Shown here: positions 36,692-42,748 of the stretch, piece after piece
Numbering within the stretch: position 1 is the first letter of the stretch
Layout: the number at the start of each line of letters is the position of its first letter
Source: Brevibacterium epidermidis NBRC 14811
Lineage (GTDB): Bacteria > Actinomycetota > Actinomycetes > Actinomycetales > Brevibacteriaceae
Length of the DNA: 64,000 bases
Direction of reading: 5' to 3'
Assembly: GCF_001570805.1 (NCBI RefSeq)
Contig: NZ_BCSJ01000003.1
Span: 372,001-436,000 of the forward strand
Notes under the pieces: generated by a model
Database searches by the model: none
What the model saw: only the letters and a program-made list of their open reading frames with translations
Told to the model about the DNA's origin: nothing
Program-made: the position numbers and the translations under genes

Positions 36692-38038
36692 GTGAGCGAT
36701 TTCTCCGAGGACAACGGTGCCGAGGCGGACCCCGATGAAGTGGGCGCCGGACGAGCTGGCGCGGGGCAAGCCGGCGCGGGCAGTGCGGCCGGTCCGCGAC
36801 GTTTCAGCGTGCTCCGCAGCTGGAAGACTGCGCCCTACTTAGTCGGGTCGGGCACGGCGATGATGGGCGACAACATCGAACACGTCATCACCTACTGGGT
36901 GCTGTGGCAGAAGTTCGAATCCCCGGCGCTCGTCGGGTTCCAACTCATCAGCCACTGGCTGCCGTTCCTGCTGCTGTCCGTCTATGCCGGGTCACTGGCC
37001 GAACGATTCGACTGCCGCCGCCTCATCCAGATCGGGCAGATCATGTTCATGGTCGTGTCCCTGTGCTGGGGGATCCTCTTCCTCACCGATTCCCTGCAGC
37101 TGTGGCAGGCCTGCGTGCTGCTCGTCATCCACGGGCTCGCCGGCTGCCTGTGGGGTCCGGCCGAGCAGATGATGCTCCATGATTTCGTCGACCGGAAGGA
37201 GCTGCCGAGCGCGGTCCGACTCAATGCCACGTTCCGCAGCCTCGGCATCCTCTTCGGTCCCGTCGTCGGTTCCGCTCTGCTGCTCGGGGTCGGTGCCACG
37301 TGGGGCATCTTCATCAACATCGTCTTCTATCTGCCGCTGACGATCTTCCTCATCCGCACCCCCTTCACCGGGCATCTGCGCAGCGGAGGAGTGCGCACTG
37401 CGCGGACGACTCTCATCCAGTCGCTGCGGGTGCTCATCGACGTCCGCCACAATCGCGCGATCGTCGGCATGCTGTTGCTGGCCGCGCTCGCCTCGACGAC
37501 GATCGGGGCGGTGCTGCAGACGGCGATGCCGGTGTTCGGCGACATCCTCAACCCGGTCGGCGGGGACAGCGACTTCACCTATGGCGTGCTGCTCTTCGCC
37601 ATGGGCGCCGGCGGGGTGCTCGGCGGCTTCGGGCTCGAAGCGACCGGGTGGATCAAGGCCGTTCCGGCTGCGGCTGCTCTGGCTGCTGCGGCGATGGGTG
37701 TCAGCTCACTGCTCTTCGCTCTGACCTCCCACCTGTGGGTGGCCGTGATCATGCTCGTCATCGCCGGAGTCTCGAAGATCACCGCCGAGTCGACCGAGAT
37801 GGCGATCATCCAGCTCGAGGCTCCGCCCGAGATCCGCGGTCGCGTCATCGGCTCTTATGCGACGTTCGGCCCCGGCATGCAGACCTTCTCCGGAGTCACC
37901 GTGGGAGTGCTCGGTACGATCGCCACGATCCCCGGAGCCGTCATCATCGGCGGCACGGTCCTGGCGATCGGCGCGGTGGCCATCGGAACCTACGCCGTCA
38001 CAGGAAGACGCAACCCCCATGCCCCAATTGCTACCTGA
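36692..38038 (+). CDS. MFS transporter, EntS/MdfA-like exporter
   Basis: The protein has 448 residues from GTG at 36692; an earlier frame-open stretch is not protein-like. A Gly/Ala-rich leader of about 30 residues precedes twelve helices with GSGTAMMGDNIEHVITYWVL, SLAERFDCRRLIQIGQ and WGPAEQMMLHDFV. These are features of the EntS-like exporter family. GAGAAT lies six bases before the start, so transcription may begin at GTG. The TGA stop (38036-38038) lies inside copy 1 of the palindromic repeat. Substrate unknown. Confidence 0.85.
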   Translation: MSDFSEDNGAEADPDEVGAGRAGAGQAGAGSAAGPRRFSVLRSWKTAPYLVGSGTAMMGDNIEHVITYWVLWQKFESPALVGFQLISHWLPFLLLSVYAGSLAERFDCRRLIQIGQIMFMVVSLCWGILFLTDSLQLWQACVLLVIHGLAGCLWGPAEQMMLHDFVDRKELPSAVRLNATFRSLGILFGPVVGSALLLGVGATWGIFINIVFYLPLTIFLIRTPFTGHLRSGGVRTARTTLIQSLRVLIDVRHNRAIVGMLLLAALASTTIGAVLQTAMPVFGDILNPVGGDSDFTYGVLLFAMGAGGVLGGFGLEATGWIKAVPAAAALAAAAMGVSSLLFALTSHLWVAVIMLVIAGVSKITAESTEMAIIQLEAPPEIRGRVIGSYATFGPGMQTFSGVTVGVLGTIATIPGAVIIGGTVLAIGAVAIGTYAVTGRRNPHAPIAT

Positions 38039-38085
38039 CGGCGCTGCAGCAACCTGGCGCCAGGTTGCTCCGCCCCCGTCACCTG
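38031..38085. repeat. Palindromic repeat, copy 1
   Basis: The core is the perfect 20-bp palindrome GCAACCTGGCGCCAGGTTGC at 38049-38068, flanked by diverged outer arms (CTACCTGACGG on the left, CCGTCACCTG on the right). It supplies the TGA stop of the MFS gene. Two further copies lie at 38876 and 40306. Confidence 0.9.
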
Positions 38086-38105
38086 CTCCAGCGCGGGAAT
38101 TCGGC

Positions 38106-38858
38106 GTGCCATCGATCGGCTTCGCCCATATCAAAGGCACCCGGCACGAGGCCCGACCGGGAGCGATCGTCGATGCTCAGGGGCCGGTCGGCGACCGCCC
38201 GTTCTGCTTCGTCGATGTCGAGCGAGCGCAGGTGCTCAAGACCGTGCAGAATCCGCGGCTCATCCGAATGACCACCTCACTCGTCGACGACACACTGACG
38301 GTCACCCTGCCCGACGGGCGCTCTGCCTCTGGGGAGCCAGCCGGCTCGGGCGAGCGCCTGACCTGCTCCTACTGGAAGCGACCGGTCGACCTGGAACTCA
38401 CCGACGGTCCGCATTCGGCGCTCGCCTCCGAGTGGCTGGGAAAGTCGGTCCGGCTGGCCCGCGCACACCGTGGGGACGTGATCTACGGAGCTGGCCTGTC
38501 GATCGTCACGACTGCTTCGATGAGGGAACTCGCCGATCAGTCCGGTCACCACGAGCTGCTAGATGAGGCCGCCCGCTTCCGTGCCACCCTCGTCCTCGAC
38601 ACGGACGAACCCTTCATTGAAGAGACCTGGCGAGGCAGGGATGTGATGCTGAACGTGCCGGACGTCGGCGCTCTGCGTGTGCGGATCGGGGAACCGATTG
38701 CGCGGTGCGCCATCCTCGATCTCGACCCGATCACCGGCGAGCGGGGCAGCAACCTGCTCAAGACGCTTGTCGCCAGCCGCCCGCGGAATGAGGCGGGTGA
38801 ACCGTACTTCGGCGTCAACGCCGAAGTCATCGAAACCTCTGCGGCTCCGGACACCTGA
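38106..38858 (+). CDS. MOSC-domain protein with N-terminal beta barrel
   Basis: The protein has 250 residues from GTG at 38106, where family homology begins (IGFAHIKGTRHEARPGA, the MOSC_N barrel). The MOSC part includes LGKSVRLARAHRG and FRATLVLDTDEPFIEETWRG, then RIGEPIARCAILDLDPITGE with the cysteine expected to bind sulfur or the molybdenum cofactor. Stand-alone MOSC proteins are linked to cofactor-sulfur handling or N-hydroxylated base reduction. An ATG at 38019 in the same frame would translate through the palindromic repeat, so the true start is uncertain. The gene is bracketed by two repeat copies. Confidence 0.8.
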   Translation: MPSIGFAHIKGTRHEARPGAIVDAQGPVGDRPFCFVDVERAQVLKTVQNPRLIRMTTSLVDDTLTVTLPDGRSASGEPAGSGERLTCSYWKRPVDLELTDGPHSALASEWLGKSVRLARAHRGDVIYGAGLSIVTTASMRELADQSGHHELLDEAARFRATLVLDTDEPFIEETWRGRDVMLNVPDVGALRVRIGEPIARCAILDLDPITGERGSNLLKTLVASRPRNEAGEPYFGVNAEVIETSAAPDT

Positions 38859-38875
38859 GTGGCCACGTTCCAACG

Positions 38876-38933
38876 CAGGTGACGGCGGCGGCCCAGATAC
38901 CTGGCGCCAGGTTGCTGCGCCGCCGTCAGGTAG
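38876..38933. repeat. Palindromic repeat, copy 2
   Basis: The 58-bp copy has the core CCTGGCGCCAGG and outer arms CAGGTGACGGCGGCG and CGCCGCCGTCAGGTAG. It lies between the convergent MOSC and kynureninase genes and ends three bases before the kynureninase stop, so it could act as a bidirectional terminator. Confidence 0.9.
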
Positions 38934-38936
38934 TAA

Positions 38937-40229
38937 TCAGGTGACGGCGCCGCGGACTTTGTGAGCGTCTGTGTCCCAGAGGTGGTTGTCGAGGATGTCG
39001 CGCAGGGCCTCGACGGTGTCCCACACCTCGGTGAACCCGATATAGAGCGGGGTCAGCCCGAACCGCAGCACCTCCGGTTCGCGGTAGTCGCCGATGATTC
39101 CGCGCTCGATGAGTGCGCTCATCACCGCAAACCCCTCCGGGTGCCGGATCGAGACCTGGGATCCGCGATGAGCGTGCTCACGTGGGGTGACGACCTCGAC
39201 CGGGTGATCGGCCAAACGCTCATCGACGAGGTCGATGAACAGGTCGGACAAGGCCAGGGACTTCTCCCGCACCAGGTTCATGTCCACCCGAGAATGGATG
39301 TCGAGGCCGAGCTCCGCCACCGACATCGACAAGATACCCTGCGTTCCGGTGAGGTACCGGCGGATGCCGTCGGCCGGTCGATAGTCCGGGGCCATCTCGA
39401 ACGGTTGGGCATGAGACCACCACCCCGACAGGGGTTGGCTGAATCGGTTCTGCAGCGCCTCGGCGACCCAGATGAACGCCGGTGAGCCGGGCCCGCCGTT
39501 GAGGAACTTGTACGTGCAGCCGATCGCCATGTCGGCACCCGAACCGGTGAGATCGATGGGCAGAGCACCCGCCGAATGGCACAGGTCCCAGATGACCATG
39601 GCCCCGCCGGCATGGATCGCCGAGGTGGTCGTGCCCATATCGAAGAGACGACCCGTCCGGTAGTTCACGTGGGTGAGCACGACGAGGGCCACCTCGTCGG
39701 ACATCGTCGTCGGGAACCCTGCGGTGACTTCCTCATCGTCGACGAGGCGGACTTTGTATCCGTCGCCGAGCTGTTCGGCCAATCCTTCGAGCATGTAGAT
39801 ATCGGAGGGGAAGTTCTCCCGCTGAGTGAGGATGACCCGCCGGTCCGGGGAGTCCTCGGCCTGCATCTTCAGCGCCGCCGAGGCGGCCTTGAACAGGTTG
39901 ATCGAGGTGGTGTCCGTGACGACGGTGGACCCGGCCCCGCCGCCGACGATCCCGGCGATCTTCTCACCCAATTTAGCGGGCAGGTCCCACCAGCTGGCGG
40001 AGTTCCATGACCCGATGAGGCCGGTGCCCCATTCGTCGGCGATGACGTCCTGGGCGCGCTCGGCCGCGCCTTTCGTGCGGGGACCGAGCGAGTTCCCGTC
40101 GAGGTAGATCGTGCCTTCCGGGAGCAGGAAATCGTCGCGGAAATCACGCAGGGGATCGTTCGCATCGCGTTGTTCGCAGTTCGCGCGGGTGATCGCCGAG
40201 GTGGTGGAGACCGGGTCAGGAGTCGTCAT
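38937..40229 (-). CDS. kynU: Kynureninase
   Basis: The 430-residue fold-I PLP enzyme has the kynureninase N-terminus EGTIYLDGNSLGPRTKGA, GTGLIGSWNSASWWDLP, IWDLCHSAGALPIDL and the PLP lysine motif GCTYKFLNGGPGSPAF, plus GWWSHAQPFEM. It cleaves kynurenine to anthranilate and alanine (or 3-hydroxykynurenine to 3-hydroxyanthranilate). GGAAGG precedes the ATG at 40227-40229. No tryptophan dioxygenase or kynurenine formamidase gene is in the window, so it looks unlinked from the rest of the pathway. Repeat copies flank it on both sides. Confidence 0.93.
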   Translation of the reverse strand: MTTPDPVSTTSAITRANCEQRDANDPLRDFRDDFLLPEGTIYLDGNSLGPRTKGAAERAQDVIADEWGTGLIGSWNSASWWDLPAKLGEKIAGIVGGGAGSTVVTDTTSINLFKAASAALKMQAEDSPDRRVILTQRENFPSDIYMLEGLAEQLGDGYKVRLVDDEEVTAGFPTTMSDEVALVVLTHVNYRTGRLFDMGTTTSAIHAGGAMVIWDLCHSAGALPIDLTGSGADMAIGCTYKFLNGGPGSPAFIWVAEALQNRFSQPLSGWWSHAQPFEMAPDYRPADGIRRYLTGTQGILSMSVAELGLDIHSRVDMNLVREKSLALSDLFIDLVDERLADHPVEVVTPREHAHRGSQVSIRHPEGFAVMSALIERGIIGDYREPEVLRFGLTPLYIGFTEVWDTVEALRDILDNHLWDTDAHKVRGAVT

Positions 40230-40305
40230 CGTCGCCTTCCAAGTAATCGAGAGGGCCGGTGGGCCCGTGCGCTTCTCAGGCTACCCCGTCACTTCCCTCC
40301 CAGAA

Positions 40306-40361
40306 CTACCCGACGGCGGCCCAGCAACCTCGCGCCAGGTTGCTGGGCCGCCGTCAGGTAG
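40306..40361. repeat. Palindromic repeat, copy 3
   Basis: This is the best-preserved copy: a 56-bp near-perfect palindrome with arms of 28 bases and about two mismatches, starting CTACCCGACGGCGGCCCAGC and ending in the complement. It lies in the divergent region between kynU and the VOC-family gene. Confidence 0.92.
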
Positions 40362-40485
40362 CAGGGTGTCGACTTGGGGTGGGTGTGCGGAGAGAATCAG
40401 ACTCCCATCGTTCAGCCGTCCGGCTGTCATGGTTCGTCTGGGCTCGCATCCGCTGATGCGTCGCCGTCACTGCAAGGGAGCAGTT

Positions 40486-40911
40486 ATGACCCAGATCTTC
40501 GTCAACCTTCCGACCACCGACCTCGAGCGTGCCAAGACCTTCTACCAGTCCATCGGCGCCGAGGTGGTGCCCGAGTTCACCGATGACAATGCGTCGTGCA
40601 TCAGATGGACCGACGACATCTTCTTCATGATCCTCACCCGGGACTACCTCGCCACTTTCACGGACAAACCGATTGCCGACCCGCACACCACAGCTCAGGC
40701 GCTCACTGCCATCAGCCGCGAATCCCGCGACGAGGTCGACGCAATGCGCGCCTCGATCCTCGACGCCGGCGGCGGGGAGAACAAAGAACCTCAGGACCTC
40801 GGGTTCATGTACGGCATCAGCATGACCGACCCCGACGGCAACATCCTCGAGTTCATGTGGATGGACCCGACGGCAGCCGAACAGGGCCCCGAGGCCTTCG
40901 CCGAAGGCTGA
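40486..40911 (+). CDS. VOC/glyoxalase-superfamily protein
   Basis: The 141-residue protein starts at ATG 40486 with AAGGGAG upstream. It has the N-terminal VOC strand FVNLPTTDLERAKTFYQSIG, IFFMILTRDYLATF, and the C-terminal GISMTDPDGNILEFMWMDP. The sequence fits the YitW/PhnB-like group of glyoxalase relatives, whose substrates are mostly unknown. It is divergent from kynU; a functional link is possible but unsupported. The stop codon is part of a palindrome shared with the recQ stop. Confidence 0.87.
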   Translation: MTQIFVNLPTTDLERAKTFYQSIGAEVVPEFTDDNASCIRWTDDIFFMILTRDYLATFTDKPIADPHTTAQALTAISRESRDEVDAMRASILDAGGGENKEPQDLGFMYGISMTDPDGNILEFMWMDPTAAEQGPEAFAEG

Positions 40912-40918
40912 GTCAGCC
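40894..40918. terminator. Hairpins over the VOC and recQ stop codons
   Basis: GCCTTC-N3-GAAGGC (40894-40908) is followed by the palindrome GGCTGAGTCAGCC (40906-40918), which contains both convergent stops. No T-run is present. The two stems share bases, so only one can form at a time. Confidence 0.45.
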
Positions 40919-42748
40919 AGCGTGGGCGGCGAGCACTTCGAGCACGGAATCGCCATAGCGGTCGAGCTTCTTCAAGCCCACACCGCTGACCTGGCCGAGT
41001 TCGCTGATCGTCGTCGGTTTGACCTCGACGATGCCGTAGAGCGTGGCATCGGGGAACACGACGTAGGCGGGCACGCCCTGCTCCTTCGCCTGCTCTCCGC
41101 GCCAGGAGCGCAGGGCCTCGAACAGGGAGGCATCGGCGGGGTCGAGCTCGACCTCGCGGCCGCCTCGGCGACGGGATCCGGCCTTCTTCGCCCCTGCCTT
41201 CTTCACCGGGTCGACGCGCAGTGAGATCTCCTCTTCTCCGCGCAGGACGGGGCCGGCGGCCTCACCGATCACGAGCACCCCGTAATCACCGTGGGATTCG
41301 AGGAGTCCGCGGGCGAGCACCTGGCGGATGACGGTCTTCCACTGACTCTCGGACAGGTCTTCGCCGACGCCCCAGACGCTCAGGCTCTCATGGTCCGAGG
41401 CTCGGGACCGGTCGTTGTGGTTGCCACGCAGCACGTCGATGACCTGGCCCGATCCGAAACGCTGCCCGCGTTCTCGGTCGAGTCGGATGACGGCCGAGAG
41501 CAGCTTCTGCACGGCGACGGTGGCGTCCCAGGTCACCGGGGGTGTCATGCAGGTGTCGCAGTTGCCGCACGGTGCGGATTCCTCGTCGAAGTAGCGCAGC
41601 AGCTGGACGCGTCGGCAGTCGACGGTCTCGCAGAGGGCGAGCATCGAATCGAGGTGGCTCATCTGACGGCGTTTGAACACCTGGTCGCCCTCGCCGGATT
41701 CGATGAGGCGGCGTTGGGAGACGACATCGCCGAGTCCGTAGACCATCCACGCATCCGCGGGCAGTCCGTCACGGCCGGCGCGACCGGTCTCCTGGTAGTA
41801 ACCTTCGACCGACCGTGGCAGGTCGAGGTGGGCGACGAAGCGGACATCGGGTTTGTCGATGCCCATGCCGAAGGCGATCGTGGCGACCATGACGATGCCG
41901 TCTTCGCGGAGGAATCTCGCCTGGTTCTCCGCGCGCACCTCACCGGGCAGCCCTGCGTGATAGGGCAGAGCGGTGATGCCGCGAGCTGCCAGCGCTTCGG
42001 CCAGCTGGTCGACACCGCGGCGGGACAGACAGTAGACGATGCCGGAGTCGCCGGAGTGTTCGGTGGTGATGAAGTTCAGCAGCTGTGACCTCGCCGAGGC
42101 CTTCGGTTCGATCCGATAAGTGATATTCGGTCGGTCGAAGCTCGCGACGAAGTGCTCGGCATCCTGGAGGTGGAGGCGCTCGGTGAGCTCGGCATGGGTC
42201 GCCGGTGTGGCCGTGGCTGTGAGCGCGATGCGCGGGACATCGGGGAACTGCTCGGCCAGCACGCCGAGTCCCAGATAGTCGCTGCGGAAGTCATGGCCCC
42301 ATTGGGATACGCAGTGGGCTTCGTCGATGGCGAACAGTGAGATCTGTGCCTGCACGAGCAGTCGCATGGTCCGCGGCAGGACGAGGCGTTCGGGCGCCAG
42401 ATAGAGCAGGTCGAGCTCACCGGCGAGCAGCTGCTGTTCGACCTGCTGGGCGGTCTCGAAATCGAGAGACGAGTTGAGATAGGCCGCCCGCACGCCGAGG
42501 TTCTCCAGGGCCGCGACTTGATCGGCCATGAGTGCGATGAGCGGGGAGATGACCACCCCGGTACCTGGTCTGACCAGGGCCGGAATCTGGTAGCACAGGG
42601 ACTTCCCGCCGCCGGTGGGCATGAGCACGACCGCGTCCCCGCCGCCGACGACCTGGTCGACGATGGCCGCCTGCTGACCCCGGAACTCCTCATAGCCGAA
42701 GACATCGTGGAGGACATCGAGGGCGGAGGTTGTGGCTGCGGAGGTCAT
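40913..42748 (-). CDS. recQ: ATP-dependent DNA helicase RecQ
   Basis: The protein has 611 residues from the ATG at 42746-42748. Helicase motifs are present: FGYEEFRGQQAAIVDQVV (motif 0), LMPTGGGKSLCYQ (I), IDEAHCVSQWGHDFR (II), ALTATATP (III), IVYCLSRRGVDQLA (IV), and ETGRAGRDG (VI). The zinc cluster appears as CGNCDTC preceded by a cysteine in ALCETVDCRRVQLL. A winged-helix RQC region and a C-terminal HRDC domain (LFEALRSWRGEQAKEQGVPA) follow. It unwinds DNA 3'-5' in recombination and fork repair. A Lys/Arg-rich linker lies before HRDC. Confidence 0.95.
   Translation of the reverse strand: MTSAATTSALDVLHDVFGYEEFRGQQAAIVDQVVGGGDAVVLMPTGGGKSLCYQIPALVRPGTGVVISPLIALMADQVAALENLGVRAAYLNSSLDFETAQQVEQQLLAGELDLLYLAPERLVLPRTMRLLVQAQISLFAIDEAHCVSQWGHDFRSDYLGLGVLAEQFPDVPRIALTATATPATHAELTERLHLQDAEHFVASFDRPNITYRIEPKASARSQLLNFITTEHSGDSGIVYCLSRRGVDQLAEALAARGITALPYHAGLPGEVRAENQARFLREDGIVMVATIAFGMGIDKPDVRFVAHLDLPRSVEGYYQETGRAGRDGLPADAWMVYGLGDVVSQRRLIESGEGDQVFKRRQMSHLDSMLALCETVDCRRVQLLRYFDEESAPCGNCDTCMTPPVTWDATVAVQKLLSAVIRLDRERGQRFGSGQVIDVLRGNHNDRSRASDHESLSVWGVGEDLSESQWKTVIRQVLARGLLESHGDYGVLVIGEAAGPVLRGEEEISLRVDPVKKAGAKKAGSRRRGGREVELDPADASLFEALRSWRGEQAKEQGVPAYVVFPDATLYGIVEVKPTTISELGQVSGVGLKKLDRYGDSVLEVLAAHAG

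Follow-up and report, generated by a model that had tools for sequence, protein, structure and literature searches.

Passages of PMC1525189 describe the insertion of IS110-family insertion sequences (IS) into repetitive extragenic palindromic (REP) repeats, and the passages of PMC11208160 and PMC11187229 that treat bridge RNA use a nine-base left target guide and place the guides of seekRNA or bridge RNA in the noncoding end of the element. For mycobacteria, PMC12288462 describes, in the passages on U-less "I-shaped" terminators, hairpins that lack poly-U and lie at most about 50 bp from a stop codon. Here, we analyze a window of 64,000 nucleotides from Brevibacterium epidermidis NBRC 14811 (contig NZ_BCSJ01000003.1, positions 372,001 to 436,000), in which an earlier note made from the sequence had reported three near-palindromes of about 56 bp; all three are present, at 38031-38086, 38878-38933, and 40306-40361. 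They belong to a family that is specific to Brevibacterium, stands mostly just past stop codons, keeps its positions between species, and is a landing site for IS110-family elements. In our judgment, it is fairly probable that these palindromes are once-mobile, now mostly fixed, bidirectional 3'-end hairpins without a U-tract that serve termination, mRNA protection, or both. The genome of the window is referred to below as G000, other G numbers denote compared genomes, and L numbers denote fetched loci.

A palindrome family of Brevibacterium

The family has the consensus CTACCTGACGGCGGCCCAGCAACCTSGC followed by its complement, a palindrome of about 56 bp, almost without a loop, that in many copies continues outward as TAATTR or CAGAA and then as C-rich (left) and G-rich (right) flanks, for 56 to 70 bp overall. 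A covariance model built from 33 copies, with 150 candidates scored in G000, gave 144 rows on both strands, or about 72 places genome-wide, and so bears out the proposal that the palindrome is a module spread over the genome and independent of any single gene. The earlier note would have given up that proposal had no further copies and no stem conservation in relatives been found; in addition to the 72 or so places, the stem is kept in relatives. Two-sided changes within the family occur in 4 of 26 pair columns and 26 of 858 cells across the 33 copies, a chance core match (L043) being excluded from alignments. Twelve of the G000 places are cut by contig ends, and two contig-end pairs are probable halves of one copy (the start of C6 with the end of C17, which have an odd variant in common, and the end of C6 with the start of C7, which flank one G048 copy), so that, given the 150 candidates scored, the true number in G000 could lie on either side of this figure. 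Of the 50 contig ends of G000, at least 14 fall within a copy, and the palindromes thereby explain many assembly breaks. A sub-family with different inner arms (GGGCCCCCAGCACCC... and GGCGCCCCAGC...) that are still mostly complementary is seen at G053:C1:3925727 and 10875.

Of the 57 Brevibacterium genomes, 30 contain the core pattern (at most 2 mismatches), with 24 to 86 copies in 17, 1 to 10 in 13, and none in 27; as a reversed control matches once in each of 11 genomes, counts of 1 to 3 carry little meaning. When a longer core was sought in 396 genomes of the order, 35 of them Brevibacterium, it matched in 15, all Brevibacterium (control, 2 of 396), and was absent from all 361 genomes of other genera. 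The palindrome family is therefore specific to Brevibacterium. In a tree of one gene only, that of the major facilitator superfamily (MFS) transporter beside copy 1, high-copy genomes fall into two groups, and the zero-copy genomes G031 and G011 stand beside the group of the window. Spread by plasmids or phages was rejected, as a 72-nt consensus had no blastn match (E≤0.01) among 72,556 plasmid and 50,697 phage records. An Rfam scan of window positions 37500-41000 returned only mir-1791, at 25.9 bits against a gathering score of 75, and a literature search found no description of the family; in the passages of PMC6579920, on the mobilome of Brevibacterium aurantiacum, "palindrom" occurs once, in connection with CRISPR. 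In G056, which is without the family, 140 kb were screened for some other palindrome in repeated form, and the idea was rejected, since the two hairpins obtained at a score of ≥16 are mutually unlike.

Placement at gene ends and hairpin structure

Among 59 G000 copies with gene context, 31 lie between tandem genes, 20 between convergent genes, and 4 between divergent genes, with 3 at a locus edge and 1 inside a doubtful gene call. The upstream stop is closer than the next start for all 31 tandem copies, and a stop lies within 60 nt for all 20 convergent copies. Overall, 62 of 71 stop distances in G000 are at most 60 nt, with a median of 37 nt to the palindrome center; the distance is exactly 31 nt in 18 cases, where TAA falls within the outer TAATTA end, and exactly 20 nt in 3, where TGA falls within the arm, as in copy 1. 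Against background gaps of at least 70 bp in 397 kb (102 tandem, 37 convergent, and 57 divergent), copies are fewer in divergent gaps (p=0.0006) and more frequent in convergent gaps (p=0.010). The 79 copies of G048 are distributed alike, with 37 tandem (37/37 closer to the stop), 32 convergent, 5 divergent, and 5 unplaced.

Folds of 76 nt around the copies average -55.8 kcal/mol (range, -75.5 to -22.1), and among regions outside the family, -35 kcal/mol is reached by 26 of 157 3' regions and by 0 of 211 5' regions. Read in transcript sense, the mismatches in tandem copies are G.U in 25 cases versus A.C in 8 (17:6 in G000 and 8:2 in G048); in convergent copies, the corresponding ratios are 9:6 and 3:2. 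At one site, L261:8157, two convergent stops enclose a palindrome in G048 and, in G000, an unrelated but equally stable hairpin (-63.5 kcal/mol; z, -8.47). Elsewhere, at about 567056-567121 of G000:C3, there is an unrelated perfect inverted repeat with 32-bp arms and a 2-nt loop.

Conserved positions and probable concerted change

When copies with less than 150 nt of flank are excluded, G048 carries a counterpart at the corresponding position for 54 of 57 G000 copies; these correspond to 52 distinct partners, and in 43 cases both flanks match. Of the 79 G048 copies read, 27 are without an internal G000 partner, and 13 of these have a flank matching a G000 locus at or near a contig end. The positions of the copies are old. 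For the orthologue set, 6 of the 54 pairs that fell under 45 of 56 through an interruption or a slipped frame were dropped, as were 2 in which a partner was used again, and in the 46 one-to-one pairs, the palindrome is 94.0% identical and the flanks are 90.0% identical. Between these orthologues, 24 pair columns are altered on both sides, 18 of which are paired before and after; the orthologue in G053 also carries several two-sided changes.

Among 154 arm-wise differences, 119 are exchanges between states that each occur commonly in the family, as compared with 8 of the 84 substitutions possible from the major base. At one dinucleotide, AT in G000 stands opposite CA in G048 in 21 of 92 arms, and the reverse occurs in 1 (the GATACC/GCAACC change). 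As repeated independent double changes are unlikely, such species-specific changes common to copies suggest conversion between copies. Paralogue identity is 49.7 of 56 in G000 and 49.1 of 56 in G048, versus 51.2 of 56 for orthologues; paralogues are thus no more alike than orthologues, and any homogenization would be only partial.

IS110-family insertions and probable palindrome-bounded deletions

Copy 1 of G053 holds a 1.38-kb insert that encodes an IS110-family transposase. Relatives of this transposase (E≤1e-60) gave 38 matches in 15 of the 57 genomes, and of the 30 loci fetched, 24 are inside a palindrome, at three positions: the outer arm at CCGTCAG^GTAG (15 loci, among them L292, for which one side was read), the center at CCTC^GCGC or one-base variants (7 loci), and the mid-arm at GGCC^GCCGTC (2 loci: L286, in G000 at C2:95151, and L293). 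Five loci (L284 and L287-L290, in genomes with 0, 4, 0, 10, and 68 copies) are outside the palindrome, and L300 was assigned to neither group. One palindrome hosts two IS110 elements (L295/L305), copy 3 of Brevibacterium sediminis (L089) is interrupted by the same kind of IS110 end, and the alignment of Brevibacterium iodinum L090 with L093 stops at the palindrome edge. The palindrome is accordingly an IS110 landing site. The start of a reading frame beside the IS110-like end in L089:1-300 has, by eye, a resemblance to what we take to be an IS3-type OrfA. To the left of the IS110 end in L297 and L301 (G053 and G043), another sequence, ending ...GGGGACCASTCCAC, also cuts the palindrome at its center.

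Two of the IS110 groups carry a predicted target guide that matches the palindrome beside the insertion point. Within the noncoding end of about 300 nt, the stretch enclosed by GACTC and TGAC is identical to the 9 nt adjoining the insertion in 7 of 7 center elements; among 13 outer-arm elements (for 4 of which one IS end was set by length), the guide-like 9-nt match is exact in 5, has one mismatch in 6, and has three mismatches in 2. L281 carries CAGAACTAC and is inserted in a CAGAACTAC end. Shuffled guides equal the consensus match in 3 and 26 of 20,000 trials for these two main guides. A mid-arm guide was rejected as not beyond chance: the group, with one element read, matches at 8 of 9 positions only when the junction is shifted by one, and as 8,436 of 20,000 shuffles do as well, the match is no evidence.

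Palindromes also mark the ends of missing segments. In G043, G026, and G038, the VOC gene beside copy 3 has a palindrome on either side, and a single palindrome is found, with the VOC gene absent at the junction, in G048, G018, and G025; in G000 and G053, the VOC gene is present and the far palindrome absent. Likewise, a 7.2-kb block between two G048 palindromes is absent from G000, where half a palindrome is left. These cases are probably deletions with their ends in palindromes, a direction that we infer from the comparison of genomes. The IS110 insertions into the palindrome, the concerted change among copies, and the palindrome-bounded deletions are new relative to the earlier note.

Interpretation and alternative explanations

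Read from either side, the palindrome would give a very stable RNA hairpin directly past a stop codon, often itself providing the stop. Such a hairpin may end or fence transcription from both neighbors, shield the 3' end of the mRNA, or do both. The family may have spread by past insertion or copying and then become largely fixed in place, with copies that probably exchange sequence by concerted evolution. Among the readings offered earlier (a REP-type or miniature inverted-repeat transposable element [MITE], a protein-binding module, or a termination module), a termination module appears best supported by the features described above. In structure, the copies agree with U-less (I-shaped) terminators: a stable hairpin stands no more than some 50 nt from the stop, and no U-tail follows. 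Efficient termination by U-less hairpins is disputed, and dozens of near-identical natural copies make termination by long U-less hairpins in actinobacteria testable.

Several observations weigh against this reading. There is no U-tract: at most 5 T per 8 nt occur within 20 nt past the stem in 74 cases (5 T being reached in 1 of 74), much as in background 3' regions. A canonical intrinsic terminator is thereby ruled out, and any termination would be U-less or Rho-assisted. The G.U over A.C bias is modest (p=0.035 in G000 and p=0.11 in G048, which are not independent), and the folds of window copies 1 (-27.5 kcal/mol) and 2 (-35.0 kcal/mol) are weaker. Copy 3 and 3 other classified G000 copies sit between divergent genes, and all placement counts rest on gene calls from our own codon-based caller. 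Between orthologues, 106 pair columns are altered on one side only, so that pairing is not strictly kept. Finally, in a check for recent insertion, four G048 copies without a G000 counterpart were accounted for (one at a G000 contig break, one replaced by a hairpin, and two lost in one deletion), a check that covers the two stretches traced into G000, with seven further G048-only copies outside it.

Of the alternatives, it is conceivable, if rather unlikely, that the palindromes are selfish REP- or MITE-like repeats without host function, found at 3' ends through selection against insertion in genes and promoters. High copy number in two clades, with few or none elsewhere, would fit such repeats, as would the use of the palindrome by IS110 elements as a REP-type target. 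Copy 1 itself resembles an insertion, since G040, G031, and G011 show a four-base overlap between the MFS stop and the MOSC start, with no palindrome, and in the window a palindrome stands at this junction and provides a new MFS stop. The place of copy 1 is also occupied in G041, G023, and G003, which belong to the other clade, and its distribution may accordingly reflect gain, loss, or transfer. A target-site duplication was not visible by eye in the two comparisons made, both of diverged sequences (copy 1 with G040, G031, and G011, and L261:8157 with G000), and the REP-associated Y1 transposase (PF01797) gave 0 matches at E≤0.001 in G000, the only genome searched, in a search that was positive in 5 of 14 control genomes. 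These two results would count against selfish repeats, as do the 54 of 57 positions common to relatives and the better conservation of the palindrome than of its flanks. The earlier suggestion of a REP-type element thus stands in part: the extragenic palindrome, tens of copies, and use as an IS target agree with it, and the missing PF01797 match weakens a strict reading and leads us to reject REP with its REP-associated tyrosine transposase (RAYT) in the strict sense for G000. As separate observations, the region past the MFS stop in G020 (L134:1320-1520) contains a shorter hairpin whose arms resemble AGCAACCC/GGGTTGCT and which may be distantly related to the core. In two other genomes, another long hairpin, CGAGAC...GTCTCG, lies near the same place, at L128:4270-4335 (G023) and L129:4268-4335 (G003).

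A DNA-level dyad bound by a chromosome-organizing or regulatory protein would draw on the perfect symmetry, the strongly conserved core, and the presence of the palindrome in every large stretch examined, and yet it seems improbable given the stop-adjacent placement, the depletion from divergent gaps, the substitution of an unrelated hairpin at one site, and the G.U excess on the transcript strand. That the palindrome is kept and homogenized mainly by docking IS110-type recombinases, with host function secondary, is likewise improbable, for the 24 of 30 fetched loci in palindromes, the guide-like matches, and the deletions ending in palindromes stand against genomes that are rich in copies yet lack any such IS at E≤1e-60 (such as G048, G028, G025, G023, and G041) and against REP-type targets elsewhere that, in passages of PMC1525189, exist independently of IS.

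Together with the preferred 3'-end hairpin, it can tentatively be speculated that the palindrome is an interchangeable end-of-gene hairpin of the host whose segments have been divided among the guides of RNA-guided IS110 elements, and that recombination at these docking sites, driven by IS110 or RecA, homogenizes copies within species and deletes blocks between them.

The three copies and their genes

In the window, the 18-mer core (at most 3 mismatches) has 3 matches versus a mean of 0.02 across 100 shuffles. The 14-nt outer arm alone is at chance level, with 11 matches versus 11.0 expected, so that the signal is carried by the core and the whole palindrome. Copies 1 and 2, with 10 mismatches each to the 56-mer consensus, are poorer members than copy 3, with 1.

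The gene-boundary contexts reported for the copies are as described. The MFS transporter gene (36692..38038, + strand; Pfam MFS_3/MFS_1), whose translation ends in ...NPHAPIAT, takes its stop from copy 1, as had been proposed, with the TGA at 38036-38038 inside the left arm. Copy 1 (38031..38086; center 38058/38059) follows this stop, has a diverged outer right arm, and gives an RNA fold of -27.5 kcal/mol over 38024-38093. Beyond it lies the MOSC domain gene (38106..38858, +; Pfam MOSC_N and MOSC), its start set by our gene caller. Copy 2 (38878..38933; center 38905/38906; RNA fold of 38871-38940, -35.0 kcal/mol) lies amid the convergent stops at 38858 and 38937 of this gene and the kynureninase gene (38937..40229, -; Pfam KYNU_C and Aminotran_5). 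Copy 3 (40306..40361; center 40333/40334) lies amid the divergent starts at 40229 and 40486, the latter that of the VOC/glyoxalase-superfamily gene (40486..40911, +; Pfam Glyoxalase) with a palindrome on each side in the three genomes named above. The fold of 40293-40374 is -55.2 kcal/mol (z, -7.73). Compensatory changes had been thought to keep the stem of copy 3, and this claim fails: its 28-nt arms are 93% complementary, which amounts to two mismatched pairs.

Relation to known systems

The family is REP-like, belongs to a high-GC actinobacterium without a REP transposase of its own, and stays in place between species, yet appears to evolve in concert. Like the REP repeats and bacterial interspersed mosaic elements (BIME) that accompany RAYT in enterobacteria and pseudomonads, its members are dispersed extragenic palindromes at gene ends and targets of IS110-family elements; unlike them, they are 56 to 70 bp long, almost loop-less, and actinobacterial, with no PF01797 match in G000. 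The Cozzuto-type stem-loop sequence families described in passages of PMC2267715 are similarly intergenic structured repeat families, from a survey in which Brevibacterium is not among the genomes listed in those passages.

As with IS110/IS621 targets, the noncoding region upstream of the transposase gene has a 9-nt target match beside the insertion point, whereas here each of three related IS groups has its own position in a single palindrome family and the guide RNA is predicted from sequence alone. Our analysis also makes it testable by what route RNA-guided IS110 elements arrived at a common landing site that is repeated and harmless. With mycobacterial I-shaped terminators, the palindromes have in common a U-less hairpin near the stop codon, and they differ in forming a repeated, bidirectional sequence family for which termination is only predicted. 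In conclusion, the Brevibacterium palindromes form a genuine REP-like family, restricted to the genus, that serves as an IS110 landing site and whose members probably act as U-less hairpins at 3' ends.

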